From: a virus
Direction: 5' to 3' (one strand)
DNA: 64,000 nt
Virus record (IMG/VR): IMGVR_UViG_3300021091_000071
Location: 1-64,000 of that record
Shown one piece after another: positions 5,238 through 15,423 of the stretch. The first letter of the stretch is position 1, and every line of letters starts with the position of its first letter. The translations under genes were made by a program, and so were the position numbers. The notes beneath the pieces were generated by a model. That model had not been told where the DNA came from and ran no database searches. It was given only the letters and a program-made list of their open reading frames with translations.

Positions 5238-6479
5238 ATGTTTACCACCGGTATATACACCAATCCTCTTCTTCAACAAATCAACAGGCAATCACTTGCA
5301 GCACAAGAGCAACCTGCTCCTGTGCTAAAGCCAGACAATACACCGCCGCCTGATACAAATCTTCCTCGTGCCGTGCAGTATTATGCCGATTACTCTGGCT
5401 GTGGTTTCTGGAGAATGCTTTGGCCAGAACATCTTTTAAATGCATACAATAAAATGACTGTGCATGGTAGCACGGTCATGGTACTTGATCCCCGCTGGTA
5501 TGTGAATGTCAGAGCAGTGCGCGTACAAAGACAAGCAACGTCCTCCCAACTACAGTTTATCAAATTCCTTAAAGAGGTATCTGCTCAGATGTTAAAACAA
5601 ACTGGCAATGGATTTAGAATAATATATGAAATTGACGATGTGGTGTTTAGCGAAGATATTCCTGATTATAATAAATTTAAAACAGCTTTTGTAGATCCGG
5701 AGATTAGGAAAAATGCTCAAGAAATTATATCTCTATGTGACGAGGTAACTGTTACTTGTCAGTTTATGAAAGATTATTATGCTGAGAAGACAGGGCATAA
5801 GAATATTACAATAATACCTAACTATCCTCCAAAATTTTGGCTAGGAAGATTTTATGATGAAAAAAAGATAAGCTCGAATTATGACGCTTACAAACACAAA
5901 CCGCGAATTCTATATTCAGGGTCTGGTGCTCATTTTGATGTCGAGAACCGTGTAAATCAAAATGATGATTTTGCGCATGTCGTACGGGCCATCTATGAAA
6001 CATACAATGAGTTTCAGTGGGTATTTTTAGGTGCATTTCCTTTGCCAATCAGACCTTTGATTGATAAAGGCCTAGTTGAATTTCACCCATGGGTAAATCT
6101 CTACAATTATGGTGAGGCAATACAAAATTTGAGAATTAACATGATGGTTGCCCCTTTGCAGAATAATAATTTTAACAAAAGTAAATCTGATTTAAAATGG
6201 ATAGAAGCAAATTGCTTTGGGCTGCCTATTGCATGCCAAGATCTTTGCACATACAAAGATGCAGAGTTTAGGTTTAATACTGGTGAGGAAATGGTAGGGA
6301 TTATAAGAGAGGTTCTAAGTAAAAAAGGTAAATACATGAACATTTGCGCTAAAGCACGTAAGCAAGCTGATACCAGATGGTTAGAAGATGGGTCCAATTT
6401 AGACTGTTACTATGAATTGTTTAATCACCCATATGGTAGCCCTGAACGTAAAAAGCTTAATGCTATTAACGGTATTTAA
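5238..6479 (+). CDS. Glycosyltransferase, GT-B / family 4-like
   Basis: 413 aa. The middle and C-terminal parts resemble GT4 transferases: an IIYEIDDVVF segment near residue 130, VTVTCQFMKDYY near 170, a linker ITIIPNYPP near 190, then the C-terminal Rossmann half with RILYSGSGAHFD near 225 and a donor-site region MVAPLQ...FNKSKSDLKWIEANCFGLPI near 300-330, where the E of the 'E-x-x-x-xG' donor motif is visible. Substrate unknown; it could glycosylate virion protein, DNA or a host glycan. The first ~50 residues are proline-rich and low-complexity. It has its own promoter and converges with the membrane gene at TTAA. Confidence 0.75.
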   Translation: MFTTGIYTNPLLQQINRQSLAAQEQPAPVLKPDNTPPPDTNLPRAVQYYADYSGCGFWRMLWPEHLLNAYNKMTVHGSTVMVLDPRWYVNVRAVRVQRQATSSQLQFIKFLKEVSAQMLKQTGNGFRIIYEIDDVVFSEDIPDYNKFKTAFVDPEIRKNAQEIISLCDEVTVTCQFMKDYYAEKTGHKNITIIPNYPPKFWLGRFYDEKKISSNYDAYKHKPRILYSGSGAHFDVENRVNQNDDFAHVVRAIYETYNEFQWVFLGAFPLPIRPLIDKGLVEFHPWVNLYNYGEAIQNLRINMMVAPLQNNNFNKSKSDLKWIEANCFGLPIACQDLCTYKDAEFRFNTGEEMVGIIREVLSKKGKYMNICAKARKQADTRWLEDGSNLDCYYELFNHPYGSPERKKLNAINGI

Positions 6480-10021: not shown

Positions 10022-11104
10022 ATGAAGCAAGACGAGCTCCTATCTAAAGCGTTCAAATCGCTTGATGCATTAAACCCAGAGGCTACCTTTCTCTCAGAGA
10101 ACGCTCTGTGTAACGTCGACACTTGGTACGACACTGGCTGTTATGCACTTAACGCCATTGTATCAGGTAAACTTAAAGACGGTGGCGTGCCTAAGGGCCG
10201 TATTGTTATATTTGCGGGACCATCACAGACAGGCAAGACACTTCTTGTCAATAAGATTCTCGGACTAGCGCAAAAGAAAGGTATAGTACCAGTTATCTTT
10301 GACACGGAGTTTGCAATTGACAAGACTACAACAGCAGGTGTTGGGCTGGACCCTGATAAGACCAAATATGTGCCAGTGTATACAATCGAGAATGCACGCA
10401 ATCAAATCAGTACATTTCTTGATAGTATTGTAGAGAACAATCTACAAGGAAAATTTATTATAAGCTTGGATAGCTTAGGTAACCTTGCTGGTAGTAAAGA
10501 AGTTAATGATGTGGAGAAGGATAAAAGCGCCGCTGATATGGGTACTCGTGCTAAAGGATTAAAGAGCATGTTGCGCTTGCTGACTTACAAAGCTGGCAGA
10601 GCCGGGGTTACTATTTTAATGACAAATCATACGTATAGTGATCCTGCATCACTATACCCCTCCTTAGTACAAAATCAAAGTGGTGGCAGCGGACCGCTAT
10701 ATATGGCTAGCGTTATTGTTCAGCTTGCTAAAAAGAACGAAAAGCAAGAGAGTGAAGACGAGGCCATTTTGCCAGAAGCAAAGAATTATAACGGTGTTAC
10801 CTTAAGAGCATTAACGGTAAAAAATCGATTTGTGCCGCCCTTTTTAGAAGCAAGTATAAATTTAAATTATTTAACTGGTCTCGATAAGTATAGTGGCTTG
10901 CTCGAGATGGCTGTTAACCATGGTCTAATTATTCAGACAGGTTCTACTTACACCAAACCAGACGGTACAAAGCTAGGATATGCCAAGAACTTTACTAAAG
11001 ACTCAAAGTTCTATGAGGAGCTTATTCCTTTACTAGATAAAAAGCTTGAAGCCGCGTACAAATATGGTAATGTATCTGGCGAAACTGTAAGTGAAAAAGC
11101 CTAA
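10022..11104 (+). CDS. uvsX: UvsX RecA-like recombinase
   Basis: 360 aa (T4 UvsX 391). Walker A GPSQTGKT near residue 65, an FDTE catalytic segment near 97, Walker B IISLDSLGN near 145, and an L2-like region around NQSGGSGPLYMASVIVQL near 220. It promotes homologous pairing and strand exchange with UvsY and gp32. It starts 2 nt after the stop of the small upstream gene and overlaps queC by 14 nt, so it is in one transcription unit with queC and the amidotransferase. Confidence 0.95.
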   Translation: MKQDELLSKAFKSLDALNPEATFLSENALCNVDTWYDTGCYALNAIVSGKLKDGGVPKGRIVIFAGPSQTGKTLLVNKILGLAQKKGIVPVIFDTEFAIDKTTTAGVGLDPDKTKYVPVYTIENARNQISTFLDSIVENNLQGKFIISLDSLGNLAGSKEVNDVEKDKSAADMGTRAKGLKSMLRLLTYKAGRAGVTILMTNHTYSDPASLYPSLVQNQSGGSGPLYMASVIVQLAKKNEKQESEDEAILPEAKNYNGVTLRALTVKNRFVPPFLEASINLNYLTGLDKYSGLLEMAVNHGLIIQTGSTYTKPDGTKLGYAKNFTKDSKFYEELIPLLDKKLEAAYKYGNVSGETVSEKA

Positions 11105-11834
11105 AATAGTAGTTCCATTCTCTGGTGGGATGGATAGTACAGTTATCCTACACCGCGCAATTAATGAGGTAGGCGCCGATAGTGTACATTGCTTAACTTA
11201 CGACTATAATCAAAGACATAAAAACGAGATATCTGCAGCCATGTGGTATGCACAACACATGAAAGTTGGTGAACTACTGGTAATAGACGTTTCTTTTATT
11301 AGGGATTTAGCCCCTGTAAGTAGCTTAACTAATGATGAAATTCCTACTCCTGATGTCAGACAAGTAGCAGGTGAAGCACAGCCTAAATCATATGTACCTA
11401 ACCGGAATATGATTTTTTTAAGTATTGCCGCATCTTATGCAGAATCTATAGGTGCAAACAAAGTTTACCACGGTGCTACAAAAGTAGATAGTTTGGCTGG
11501 GTATTGGGATGCTAGTCCAGAATTTTTACCCAGCATTAACGATGTGTTGGCGTTGAACCGAGAAACTAGAATAACAGTAGAAGCACCGTTAATCGAAATG
11601 GATAAAACAGATATTGTTAAAGAAGGTATAAAACTCGGCGTTTTGTTTAGTAAGACATATACTTGTTATTCTGGGGAAGAAAAAGCAGATGCAAACTCTG
11701 TGAGTAGTGCGTTAAGAATTAAAGGGTTTGCTAACGCTGGTTACATAGACCCTCAACCATATAAACAGGATTTATCTGACGTATGGAAAAAATATAAGTG
11801 TAGAAAAATTGAATACGATCAGTATAATGATTAA
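11091..11834 (+). CDS. queC: QueC-like 7-cyano-7-deazaguanine synthase family protein, zinc site degenerate
   Basis: 247 aa. N-type ATP pyrophosphatase PP-loop SGGMDST near residue 9, the TYDYNQRH motif near 38, and YVPNRNMIFLSIAASYAE near 100, all typical of QueC, which makes preQ0 from 7-carboxy-7-deazaguanine. The C-terminal zinc motif C-x8-C-G-x-C-x2-C is recognisable by exact spacing in TYTCYSGEEKADANSVSSALR, but only the first Cys remains; the other three positions are A, V and A. The gene begins with GTG inside uvsX and its stop directly abuts the ATG of a class II glutamine amidotransferase, the domain partner found in archaeal Gat-QueC. Possible roles are preQ0 synthesis or its amidation on DNA. 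Confidence 0.85.
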   Translation: MKKPKIVVPFSGGMDSTVILHRAINEVGADSVHCLTYDYNQRHKNEISAAMWYAQHMKVGELLVIDVSFIRDLAPVSSLTNDEIPTPDVRQVAGEAQPKSYVPNRNMIFLSIAASYAESIGANKVYHGATKVDSLAGYWDASPEFLPSINDVLALNRETRITVEAPLIEMDKTDIVKEGIKLGVLFSKTYTCYSGEEKADANSVSSALRIKGFANAGYIDPQPYKQDLSDVWKKYKCRKIEYDQYND

Positions 11835-12548
11835 ATGTGCGGTATATTTGGTGCAAAAGAGTTTGATCGCTATTTAAAATTTTACGACTTAAATAGAAAG
11901 AGAGGAAATTTTTCTACAGCATGTTGTGCTGTAACTGTTCAAGGAGACTTAATTATTCACAGATGGAGCGGATCTCCTGCATTAAAAGATGTTGAGAAAG
12001 AGATGAAGAATAGTTTTAAAATGGTTGAAGCTGAGACTAATATGCCCTGTACGCTAAAATATTTTCTCGGGCATACCCAAGCCCCAACATCAGCCAAGAG
12101 AAAATATTCTAAGGACACTGCCCATCCTTTTGTTTATGATAATTGGATTATAGCACACAATGGGGTGCTTACTAATTTTAAAGACGTAAAAGAACATTTT
12201 GATCCTAAATGGAAAAACCCTGTTGATTCAAGCATTATCCCGTACGTAGTTAAGTCTGCTGAAGAAATTTTAGTAGGTAAAACGGATAATATTGAAGTTG
12301 ATAGCATGTCACATGCTTTATCTTTATTAAAAGGTACATTTGGTTTATGGTTTTTTGAATCCAACACAAAAAATATCTATATAGCAAGATGTGGATCGAC
12401 AGTCTTTGCAAACGTACTTACAAATGAATTTAGTAGTATTGAATTTGAAAATTGTGAGCCAATTACTGAAGGTCATATCTATCAGTTAACAGCGGAAGGC
12501 ATAACCACCGTTGGATTGTTTGATTTTGATAGTCCGTTTTTTACTTAA
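11835..12548 (+). CDS. Class II glutamine amidotransferase (Ntn-type GATase)
   Basis: 237 aa, a stand-alone GATase domain. The nucleophile Cys2 follows the initiator Met (MCGIFGA), the AHNGVLTN motif (Asn-Gly oxyanion residues) is near residue 108, and an Asp (VDSSII) is near 133. The usual arginine of the H-T-R-W-A-T motif (glutamine carboxylate binding in GlmS) is Gln here: GHTQAPT near residue 76. No synthetase or isomerase domain follows, so ammonia must go to a partner. The gene begins at the base after the queC stop, which points to QueC as that partner. It converges with the next gene at TTAA (12545-12548). Confidence 0.85.
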   Translation: MCGIFGAKEFDRYLKFYDLNRKRGNFSTACCAVTVQGDLIIHRWSGSPALKDVEKEMKNSFKMVEAETNMPCTLKYFLGHTQAPTSAKRKYSKDTAHPFVYDNWIIAHNGVLTNFKDVKEHFDPKWKNPVDSSIIPYVVKSAEEILVGKTDNIEVDSMSHALSLLKGTFGLWFFESNTKNIYIARCGSTVFANVLTNEFSSIEFENCEPITEGHIYQLTAEGITTVGLFDFDSPFFT

Positions 12549-13408
12549 TCGTTAAAGCTGAAGCCGCCAGGATCAAATCCTCTACCGCGGCCTACCATTC
12601 CTAGCTCACGTGCAACAGAGCTTACATCATCACCTTCCGGGAAGTCCTCAATAGTTTCTACCTCACCGGTTCCTTCTCCTTCTTTAGTCTCAATTTCTTT
12701 TTTCTTTGGTACCATTACACCAGCAGCAACTAATTGATCCAACAAATCAAACGATCTAATTTTTAATTGGTCTGCTTTATCTCTGCCAGGGGCTTCATTG
12801 TACTCGCTTATAGCAGTTTTTACAGCACTTAAAACTTCATGCTCAGGAATATCTTCATCAGGTAAAGCTAGTACTATAGCTTTAATTTTTTTGTCAGCAA
12901 CTTTTGCAGCTTTATCAATTTCATATACTGTTTCTGTTTTAACGGTCTTGGGCTCTGTGGCTTTAGCTTGTTTTTGAGCTTTAACCTTTTCGGCATCCAT
13001 CTTCAATCCGCCAGAAATCTTTTTGGCATTTAATAGATATATTAAAATGTAATTTACTGTAAACCCTGCCATTGACGTGGGTATGTTGAACTTGTCCTTA
13101 AAAATGGGCGTTAATTCATTTATAAATGTTTTAGGGTCTCCTGGAAAAAAGTAAACTTCTTTACCATCAACAACTTTTCGTTCTTTGGTGTAATCTAAAA
13201 TTGTTTGTGCCATTTCTTTTGCGATTTCTGTTTCAGGCTTCCCTGTGGCTGCTGCTATTTTAGAAATAGCTCCCGCACCATACCCTTTGCCTTGACCTGG
13301 CAATGTTTTTGATGTAACAGGAGACACGTCAATATCTCCGCCCATTTCTACAGGTGCTTCTGTAATATGTTGATACGCTTCAAATATTAACTTGTTATCG
13401 CGGTCCAT
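12545..13408 (-). CDS. Late minus-strand protein, possible internal head/structural protein
   Basis: About 287 aa from ATG 13408, chosen because a TATAAATA late promoter lies 8 nt upstream and longer versions would run into the divergent gene. No known domain recognised. The N-terminus DNKLIFEAYQHITEAP is an amphipathic helix ending in I-T-E/A, matching the [L/I]-x-E site cut by T4 prohead protease gp21. Residues ~40-130 are helical and globular-looking, followed by a lysine-rich 140-200 stretch, a possible helical bundle, and an acidic, glycine-containing tail ending GRGFDPGGFSFND. The location among early genes on the opposite strand suggests a moved late gene. Confidence 0.6.
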   Translation of the reverse strand: MDRDNKLIFEAYQHITEAPVEMGGDIDVSPVTSKTLPGQGKGYGAGAISKIAAATGKPETEIAKEMAQTILDYTKERKVVDGKEVYFFPGDPKTFINELTPIFKDKFNIPTSMAGFTVNYILIYLLNAKKISGGLKMDAEKVKAQKQAKATEPKTVKTETVYEIDKAAKVADKKIKAIVLALPDEDIPEHEVLSAVKTAISEYNEAPGRDKADQLKIRSFDLLDQLVAAGVMVPKKKEIETKEGEGTGEVETIEDFPEGDDVSSVARELGMVGRGRGFDPGGFSFND

Positions 13409-13424
13409 ATCTTGATTATTTATA
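13409..13424 (-). promoter_or_regulatory. Late promoter TATAAATA (minus strand)
   Basis: TATAAATA at 13424-13417 (minus), 8 nt before ATG 13408. It lies within the -35/spacer of the divergent early promoter 13412-13439, so the two cannot be occupied together. Confidence 0.65.
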
Positions 13425-13445
13425 GAAGTGTAGTATAATTTTAAT
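13412..13445 (+). promoter_or_regulatory. Sigma70-like promoter, leaderless GTG start
   Basis: TTGATT (13412-13417), 16-nt spacer, TATAAT (13434-13439), 6 nt (TTTAAT), GTG 13446. This supports the rare GTG start at +1. Confidence 0.65.
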
Positions 13446-14102
13446 GTGAGTCCTATAGGTATTTTTTCGTTAAGTCCTTTAAAATCAGATTGTTTGTTAG
13501 AGAGAAGTCTTAAAGATGAGACCAACGTAGATCTAAACATTGTATACAACAATAAGAGTATCGGTCTTAGCGAATATTATAATAAAATTATCAATAATGA
13601 AGACAATAATTACAAGTATACTATACTGTGTCACCACGATATTTCTTTGAGGTATGCAAATCTTATTAATTGCCTAGAGGACGGTTTGAAACAATATGAT
13701 GTAATAGGGGTAGCAGGCGGTATAAATCCTGCTGTAAAAGAAAAAAATTTATGGCACTGGATGATGGACCGTGCTGACTATAGAGGTATTGCCGCTCACA
13801 AATACAACGAAGGTAGAATGTTTATATCTGCTTTTGGTTGTTTTCCGGACCGGGTGGCAGTTTTGGATGGCGTGTTTCTTGCGTTTGAAACAGAAAAAAT
13901 TCGCAACAGTGACGCTAGGTTTGACGAGAAATTTAAATGGCATCACTATGATATCGACTTCAGTCTTACATGTAATGTTAATAAATTAAAGTTAGGAGTA
14001 TGGCCAGTTTTTGTATACCATGAAAGCCCTGGATTAAAAGATATAAATGATATAGAATGGAATAAGAGCAATGAATACTTTAGACAAAAATGGAATAGTT
14101 AA
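13446..14102 (+). CDS. Glycosyltransferase, GT-A / family 2-like
   Basis: 218 aa. A short GT2-like protein: the N-terminal 'NIVYNNKSIGLSEYYNKII' segment, YTILCHHDISL near residue 60, VIGVAGG near 90, a donor/metal region VLDGVFLAFE near 140, and FKWHHYDIDFSLTCN near 165 are the landmarks of small phage/bacterial GT-A transferases (Glyco_tranf_2_5-like). Substrate unknown. The GTG start is supported by a promoter with TATAAT 6 nt upstream. It overlaps gp41 by 32 nt. Confidence 0.7.
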   Translation: MSPIGIFSLSPLKSDCLLERSLKDETNVDLNIVYNNKSIGLSEYYNKIINNEDNNYKYTILCHHDISLRYANLINCLEDGLKQYDVIGVAGGINPAVKEKNLWHWMMDRADYRGIAAHKYNEGRMFISAFGCFPDRVAVLDGVFLAFETEKIRNSDARFDEKFKWHHYDIDFSLTCNVNKLKLGVWPVFVYHESPGLKDINDIEWNKSNEYFRQKWNS

Positions 14103-15423
14103 AAAGCAATTAGATTTAGATTTCTATGAGACAGTTGTAATATACAACTGCCTCGTGGATTCAGTTTACCTTGCGTCAATTATAGATTTTCTCGAGCCAC
14201 GTTTTTTTAAGAACAAAGATATTAAAAATATTATTACTATTATAATAAAATTTTTTAAAGAACGAGGCACAGTACCTACTCATACAGAGCTAAAGGCCTA
14301 TCTCATAGATGACGACTTAAAGACCAGCTTCAAAACAGTAGTTAGCATGTTTACTGATATTGATAAGAAATTTGATAAAGTCGAACTGGCAGATAATACT
14401 GAACTTTTTTTGAGGGAAAAAGCTGTTTATAATACACTGCTTGATGCTGCTGAAAAATTGGATAGTAAAAATCTAAACACCACCGACTTACTGGTGAAAA
14501 TGGAAAAAGCTGTTGGTATAAATTTAACTCAGGATCTTGGATTAGAATTATTTAGCGAGGTAGATCTGTTTATTAAAGATTTGCACAGTGAAGAGCCGCA
14601 TATTAAGACTGGCTGGAAGTGGCTTGACAATAAGTTAGGTGGTGGTCTTTTAGAAAATGGTAGATCCCTCTATGTATTTGCTGGCGAAACAAACGTAGGT
14701 AAAAGTATTTTTTTGGGAAACGTAGCTTCAAATATTGCTCTTCAAGGCAAAACCGTTTTATTGATTTCTCTAGAAATGAGTGAAATGATGTATGCACGTA
14801 GATTGTCTTCTTCTATAACTAGCGTACCTCTTAGCCATCTCAAAGAAGAATCAGAAACAGTGCGCCAACTTATTAAGCAATTTGCCCAAGGCAATAAATC
14901 CAAAATCATTATTAAAGAATTTCCACCTTCGACATTAACAGCCCTCCAGCTTAAAGCATATGTAAAAAAACTTATACAAAAAGGCATAAAACCTGATTTG
15001 ATTGTTCTAGATTATTTAAATCTTTTAGCTAGTCCCATAGGCAATAACAGTTATGAGAGAGTGTTGTATAGTGCACAGCAAGTGAGAGCGTTGAGTTATG
15101 AATTAAATTGTCCTATTGTGTCTGCTACTCAGTTAAATAGAAGCGGCTACAATATAGACAACCCAGGTCTTGAAACTATTTCTGAGAGTATCGGTCTAGC
15201 TACTACCGCTGACGCTATTATTTCTATATGGCAAAAAGATGAAGACAAAGAGCTAGGTATGATTAATATTGGTATGACTAAAAATAGGTTTGGGCCTAAT
15301 TTTGGCAGTATAGCGCTTAAAATAGATTACCACACTCTGCAAATTACAGAAGACGAGACTGTTAATGAGAGTGACGAATCCAAGGAGTTTTCTAAAACGT
15401 TGACAGCATTGAGTGACAGTTAA
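14071..15423 (+). CDS. gp41: gp41 replicative DNA helicase (DnaB-like)
   Basis: 450 aa (T4 gp41 475). N-terminal helical domain (1-150), then a RecA-fold: Walker A AGETNVGKS near residue 207, the LLISLEMSE motif near 230, Walker B LIVLDYLNLL near 310, ATQLNRSG near 355 and the C-terminal KNRFGP near 410. It is the hexameric 5'-3' helicase of the primosome with gp61. The start overlaps the preceding glycosyltransferase by 32 nt, and no other ATG lies close downstream. Confidence 0.94.
   Translation: MNTLDKNGIVKKQLDLDFYETVVIYNCLVDSVYLASIIDFLEPRFFKNKDIKNIITIIIKFFKERGTVPTHTELKAYLIDDDLKTSFKTVVSMFTDIDKKFDKVELADNTELFLREKAVYNTLLDAAEKLDSKNLNTTDLLVKMEKAVGINLTQDLGLELFSEVDLFIKDLHSEEPHIKTGWKWLDNKLGGGLLENGRSLYVFAGETNVGKSIFLGNVASNIALQGKTVLLISLEMSEMMYARRLSSSITSVPLSHLKEESETVRQLIKQFAQGNKSKIIIKEFPPSTLTALQLKAYVKKLIQKGIKPDLIVLDYLNLLASPIGNNSYERVLYSAQQVRALSYELNCPIVSATQLNRSGYNIDNPGLETISESIGLATTADAIISIWQKDEDKELGMINIGMTKNRFGPNFGSIALKIDYHTLQITEDETVNESDESKEFSKTLTALSDS

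Follow-up and report, generated by a model that had tools for sequence, protein, structure and literature searches.

The QueC gene, the class II glutaminase gene directly behind it and the glycosyltransferase gene that follows most likely form a trio that helps a phage to build an unusual guanine for its own DNA. They were found in the window, that is, the whole stretch of 64,000 nucleotides analysed here, which belongs to a virus fragment of 64,187 bases (IMG/VR record IMGVR_UViG_3300021091_000071) carrying T4-like replication, baseplate and terminase genes. The complete reading, a glutamine-dependent QueC feeding a DpdA-independent route to 7-deazaguanine DNA that is possibly glycosylated, is predicted from sequence and held with moderate confidence. 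The glycosyltransferase partner, the constrained loss of the QueC zinc site and the DpdA-free gene set are its new parts. The genes concerned are listed below, branch B being the group of related loci to which the window belongs.

10022..11104, plus strand: UvsX/RecA-like recombinase, directly upstream of the trio (context).
11091..11834, plus strand: QueC-family ATP-pyrophosphatase, 247 aa (PF06508, TIGR00364, motifs).
11835..12548, plus strand: stand-alone class II glutamine amidotransferase with Cys2, 237 aa (PF13522, invariant catalytic residues).
12545..13552, minus strand: open reading frame between the glutaminase and glycosyltransferase genes, seen at 32 of the 66 branch-B loci and hence no core part (context).
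13446..14102, plus strand: GT-A fold glycosyltransferase of about 218 aa, start codon uncertain (PF13712, fold model, linkage).
14071..15423, plus strand: DnaB-like replicative helicase, directly downstream of the trio (context).

A first-pass annotation had described a zinc-degenerate QueC abutting a stand-alone class II glutaminase, and both proved to be real genes. QueC starts with GTG, overlaps the end of uvsX by 14 nt and matches PF06508 with E=4.6e-54. Compared with the QueC family, a check that the annotation had proposed, it scores 175.3 bits against the NCBIfam QueC equivalog TIGR00364, above the cut-off of 150.3. Its closest solved structures are the QueC proteins of E. coli and B. 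subtilis, and it is nearer to the QueC of KVP40 than to that of 9g. The SGGMDS, YxQxHxxE and VPxRN motifs (defined in PMC13329287) are retained, as are the equivalents of Y35, R99, Y131 and Y189, the four residues essential for preQ0 synthesis by E. coli QueC (PMC13329287), including the Tyr of the zinc loop. The YPDC motif reads YWDA, its essential Tyr and its Asp being retained and Pro and Cys replaced. The zinc degeneracy was confirmed as well: one of the four Cys of the C(x)8CxxCxxC site is left (Cys192), and the other positions are D200, S203 and S206. These three residues are invariant across 18 close relatives, and in the wider group of zinc-less QueC proteins the lost ligand positions hold D or S, S or T, and S. 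Since the lost Cys are replaced by conserved residues, the zinc-less QueC is, judged by its conservation, constrained and not decaying. In a tree, loss of the zinc Cys maps to one event nested inside the glycosyltransferase-bearing branch B (UFBoot 100), a result independent of the long-branch rows (9g, CP220) whose placement is unsure; 14 of 34 branch-B representatives have the zinc Cys intact. Canonical QueC (PF06508 cluster 1) is a preQ0 synthase acting on 7-carboxy-7-deazaguanine (CDG); for the window enzyme this conversion is a prediction.

The glutaminase matches PF13522 (E=2.4e-6), and in a 22-row family alignment the class II residues C2, R23, G24, H108-N109-G110 and D131 are invariant, in agreement with the assignment as a Cys2 enzyme; a point against the glutamine-fed reading is that Arg73 of GlmS, which binds glutamine, corresponds to Gln82 in most glutaminases of the window's family. 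GlmS is the top solved-structure match of the family profile (7e-17). The TAA stop of QueC is followed directly by the ATG of the glutaminase (11834/11835), and this zero-gap junction is found in all close relatives of the window, with TAA, TAG or TGA as stop, which fits termination-reinitiation coupling. Read-through of the stop to give a QueC-glutaminase fusion was ruled out, because the identity of the stop varies while the zero gap persists; moreover, a Cys2 enzyme requires its own N-terminus, which argues against such a fusion. An AlphaFold model of the read-through fusion (pTM 0.54, mean pLDDT 72.6) was too poor for an interface. The glutaminase is the likely, predicted ammonia source for QueC.

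The pair is kept in about 75 viral loci examined. IMG/VR holds many relatives, nearly every QueC relative has a glutaminase adjacent or nearby, and this adjacency persists across deep divergence. KVP40, nt-1 and the Vibrio phages 2.275.O and 6E35.1a have the same unfused pair; annotations there call the second gene hypothetical or 'nucleophile aminohydrolase'. With tblastn at 1e-5, a window-like glutaminase was detected in only four phage records; the nt-1 glutaminase is matched by 51.

Two branches can be told apart. In Schizotequatrovirus and relatives (KVP40.0124/0125, nt-1 VPFG_00172/00173, 6E35.1a p0049/p0048), as in the window, a canonical-type QueC is followed by a stand-alone class II glutaminase, which is about 24-26% identical to that of the window. 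This KVP40-like branch A retains the zinc Cys and has combinations of FolE, QueE, QueF and DpdA2 adjoining the pair, and the genomes of KVP40, nt-1 and 6E35.1a also carry FolE and QueD. Unlike the window, these three have intact zinc Cys and DpdA2 but neither the glycosyltransferase nor the kinase found beside QueE in branch B; KVP40 and 6E35.1a additionally have QueF. In branch B, no FolE, QueE, QueF or DpdA2 was found within 10 kb of the pair except in L054, which carries QueE and a P-loop kinase at that distance. Each of the 19 records searched contains one QueC, bar a weak second match in KVP40; this QueC-domain match (NC_005083, 133726-134019, 36 bits) lies away from the queC cluster.

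Family profiles detected no FolE, QueD, QueE or P-loop kinase homologue in the 64-kb window, so that for the first three the annotation was right. Their absence is expected, since the record is a fragment and the window starts 11 kb upstream of QueC; in its closest large relatives FolE, QueD and QueE are encoded about 18-25 kb upstream of QueC. Whole branch-B records contain FolE in 12, QueD in 15 and QueE in 15 of 20 cases. Because these genes are present together with a single QueC per record, the branch-B QueC must act on CDG, and the pair very probably belongs to the 7-deazaguanine pathway. In one relative (G015, L113 10072-13198), QueD lies between uvsX and dnaB, the slot taken by QueC, glutaminase and glycosyltransferase in the window; this position seems to gain and lose genes of the pathway.

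The earlier expectation that the remainder of the pathway would be encoded elsewhere held for FolE, QueD and QueE; it did not hold for the base-exchange enzyme, as neither DpdA, DpdA2 nor TGT was found in the relatives. The TGT and DpdA2 profiles matched none of 20 branch-B records, the sole DpdA2 match among 22 records being the DpdA2 phage G022, and the DpdA1 profile matched none of 13 uncultivated records. The positive controls 9g, CAjan and G022 were recovered by the TGT and DpdA profiles; the search covered the relatives' records, which are fragments, and the known DpdA classes, so a novel class would escape it. A nucleoside deoxyribosyltransferase as a base-to-nucleotide enzyme was found in none of 21 records. 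The relatives appear to install the modified base without the insertion enzyme of other phages.

Two other genes are candidates for this step. A P-loop kinase family of the QueE neighbourhood (for example L111 14065-14760; CP220 gp006/gp057) was found in all 12 branch-B records searched, and also in G021 (a branch-A record lacking DpdA2) and CP220; it is absent from the DpdA2 phages nt-1, G022, G023 and G024, and the KVP40 match reached only 6e-4. In 16 of 16 loci of its close relatives, gathered with a single protein as query, FolE, QueD and QueE lie within 8 kb, and among phage records it has relatives only in 13 from Campylobacter phages (Firehammervirus). A purine-type phosphoribosyltransferase (L124-L127 among others) is present in 7 of 18 branch-B records, four of which exceed 220 kb; the other 11, one of them 196 kb long, gave no match, and none of the DpdA2 phages has the gene. 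Two branch-B phosphoribosyltransferases match that of CP220 itself, and in L126 (G010 C1, ~100.5 kb) a phosphoribosyltransferase related to that of CP220 lies near the gene for the ribonucleotide reductase large subunit. This gene content suggests that the base is converted to a nucleotide and incorporated as a dNTP, rather than exchanged in DNA. Incorporation at the nucleotide level is on balance the expected route, although the kinase and the phosphoribosyltransferase could instead be general nucleotide-salvage enzymes.

The dADG pathway of Firehammervirus CP220 resembles branch B in having FolE, QueD, QueE, QueC, the P-loop kinase and the phosphoribosyltransferase but no DpdA, and for this Campylobacter phage group PMC10273834 and PMC8713573 describe complete replacement of dG by a 7-deazaguanine. 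CP220 differs from branch B in that neither a glutaminase nor a partner glycosyltransferase was found and the zinc site of its QueC is intact. The replacing nucleoside in Firehammervirus is reportedly dADG, and the Campylobacter study is said not to have detected dADG phosphates, an argument against a simple nucleotide route in these phages. The common gene set would also suit a zinc-less QueC that halts at the amide, acting as a glutamine-dependent CDG to ADG synthase that leads to dADG in DNA as in Firehammervirus; the essential Tyr of the zinc loop lies near the active site, and a change of the loop may alter the second ATP step. We regard this alternative as possible but doubtful, since CP220 lacks a glutaminase homologue, its QueC keeps all zinc Cys, and branch B itself includes the zinc-retaining representatives mentioned above. 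Since the CP220 enzyme has these Cys, the idea that zinc loss marks dADG was rejected.

The bases measured in phages with an unfused pair bear on what the pair produces. The DNA of nt-1 contains mainly dPreQ0 and traces of dADG and dG+, the latter at 44 per million nt (PMC6884629). In 6E35.1a, where the gene order is dpdA2-queF-queC-glutaminase, about 15% of dG is modified, with a mass consistent with dPreQ1 (PMC12028318). These two products indicate that the branch-A pair delivers preQ0, and its glutaminase is best explained as the ammonia source of QueC. By analogy the same may apply to branch B, where the product would be the amide or the nitrile.

The first-pass annotation had taken the two genes for a split Gat-QueC acting on a 7-deazaguanine in phage DNA. 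The link to 7-deazaguanine was strengthened by the conservation of the pair and by FolE, QueD and QueE in larger relatives; the split archaeosine synthase, which would convert preQ0 to the amidine G+ and yield dG+ in phage DNA, was not supported. Gat-QueC (9g; archaea) likewise couples a class II glutaminase to a QueC domain and gives a 7-deazaguanine product. The domain types are identical to those of 9g Gat-QueC, which makes dG+ (PMC6884629), the 9g Gat domain is matched by the glutaminase profile, and the dG+ traces of nt-1 would be in line with such an activity. However, the profile gives GlmS 65 bits against 45 bits for the 9g Gat domain, and the window QueC lies above the equivalog cut-off and nearer to KVP40. 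Gat-QueC is one fused chain with the Gat domain N-terminal, keeps its zinc Cys (as in 9g), needs DpdA and makes dG+, whereas the window has two open reading frames in the reverse order, QueC then glutaminase, with a stop between them. As the main base is dPreQ0 in nt-1 and dPreQ1 in 6E35.1a, which combines the pair with QueF, a split archaeosine synthase is improbable.

The third gene of the trio matches PF13712 (1.8e-8), and its structure model (pLDDT 96.7) has a GT-A fold. In Foldseek the nearest fold is majastridin (E=4e-12 to 2nxv; 2qgi is the entry with UDP), and the DxD-type metal motif, H63xD65, is invariant. Majastridin and PF13712 glycosyltransferases thus share the GT-A fold with the window protein, one structure containing UDP, but majastridin has no link to QueC, and we know of no established function for it. 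Neighbour clustering placed the glycosyltransferase family at 62 of the 66 branch-B loci and at none of those of branch A. Reciprocally, upstream DNA of 4 kb or more was available for 46 viral copies. QueC and glutaminase precede 41 of them; four of the remaining five have only a glutaminase-like gene there and one has neither, and the glutaminase-like genes in the two loci inspected (L167, L170) lack Cys2. A tblastn search of 50,697 phage records detected no homologue, and the whole records of CP220, 9g, CAjan and branch A contained none either. The linkage was seen both beside uvsX/dnaB and in another genomic setting, and with the genes in either of two orders (QueC-glutaminase-glycosyltransferase and QueC-glycosyltransferase-glutaminase). 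By gene neighbourhood, the glycosyltransferase is a near-obligate partner of the pair.

Several further observations concern the trio and its surroundings. In the sub-branch L167/L170 the glycosyltransferase is retained, the glutaminase homologue lacks Cys2 (L167 2779-3417; L170 8539-9192) and an AAA ATPase takes the QueC slot (L167 1503-2777; L170 7284-8552). A UDP-galactopyranose mutase lies between QueC and glutaminase in L190 (7284-8273, minus strand), and a nucleotide-sugar epimerase occupies the glycosyltransferase slot in L041 (3910-4974); both are in keeping with sugar transfer and give hints to the identity of the sugar donor. Open reading frames between or beside the trio genes share an N-terminal 'LIFEAYK/IFESYR' motif and differ in the remainder (window 12545-13552, minus strand; L041 2632-3198; L170 9193-9858; L172 6707-7156; L190 8316-9206); they may be virion proteins that share a targeting peptide. 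The window also encodes a second, unrelated glycosyltransferase (5238-6479, phrog_7162), whose gene directly precedes that of the DNA polymerase and is conserved in ~30 related loci.

Bacterial relatives of the trio glycosyltransferase are common, with no QueC and glutaminase nearby apart from one case on a 9-kb MAG stretch. Because these relatives occur without QueC, homology does not tell which molecule accepts the sugar. Most likely the enzyme adds a sugar to the modified base, a nucleotide or DNA; for the base or DNA in particular, the prediction is tentative and falls just short of an even chance. QueC and glutaminase might alternatively amidate a sugar or protein, with the glycosyltransferase building a glycan of the virion or host surface. 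WbpG-type enzymes of O-antigens are a precedent, and the QueC-free bacterial relatives as well as the mutase or epimerase within some trios point in the same direction. This function unrelated to DNA is nevertheless quite unlikely, as QueC retains the CDG-pocket motifs and CDG, with FolE, QueD and QueE present and no second QueC, would otherwise be left without a consumer. That the phage makes preQ0 for queuosine in host tRNA would agree with the absence of DpdA from branch-B records but is very improbable, since a dedicated glutaminase, kinase and glycosyltransferase are not needed for it and relatives with the pair and DpdA2 place the base in DNA (PMC6884629, PMC12028318).

In the preferred reading, a glutamine-dependent QueC in a DpdA-independent pathway, CDG would be supplied by FolE, QueD and QueE encoded outside the window fragment. 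The glutaminase would hydrolyse glutamine and pass ammonia to the adjacent QueC, which would adenylate CDG and convert it to ADG, the amide, and probably further to preQ0, the nitrile. A base swap by DpdA is probably not used in branch B; the phosphoribosyltransferase and the QueE-side kinase would make a 7-deazaguanine nucleotide for the polymerase, and the modified base, its nucleotide or the DNA would most likely receive a sugar from the glycosyltransferase. The full sequence of events, in which zinc-free glutamine-fed QueC, phosphoribosyltransferase and kinase replace guanine at the nucleotide level without DpdA and the trio glycosyltransferase then glycosylates it, is a speculative and rather unlikely combination. 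No description of sugar-bearing 7-deazaguanine DNA was found in the literature examined.

Among phages that lack DpdA, the known case of 7-deazaguanine DNA is Firehammervirus, in which dG is completely replaced. Two candidate genes for the entry of the base into DNA can now be named: the QueE-side kinase, which among phage records is shared only with Firehammervirus, and the phosphoribosyltransferase. With the near-obligate glycosyltransferase, the range of 7-deazaguanine DNA would come to include forms that bear a sugar, to which the glycosylated queuosines of animal tRNA are a parallel. Finally, KVP40, nt-1 and dozens of Vibrio phages encode the glutaminase under the label 'hypothetical', and for this protein there is now a predicted function that can be assayed.
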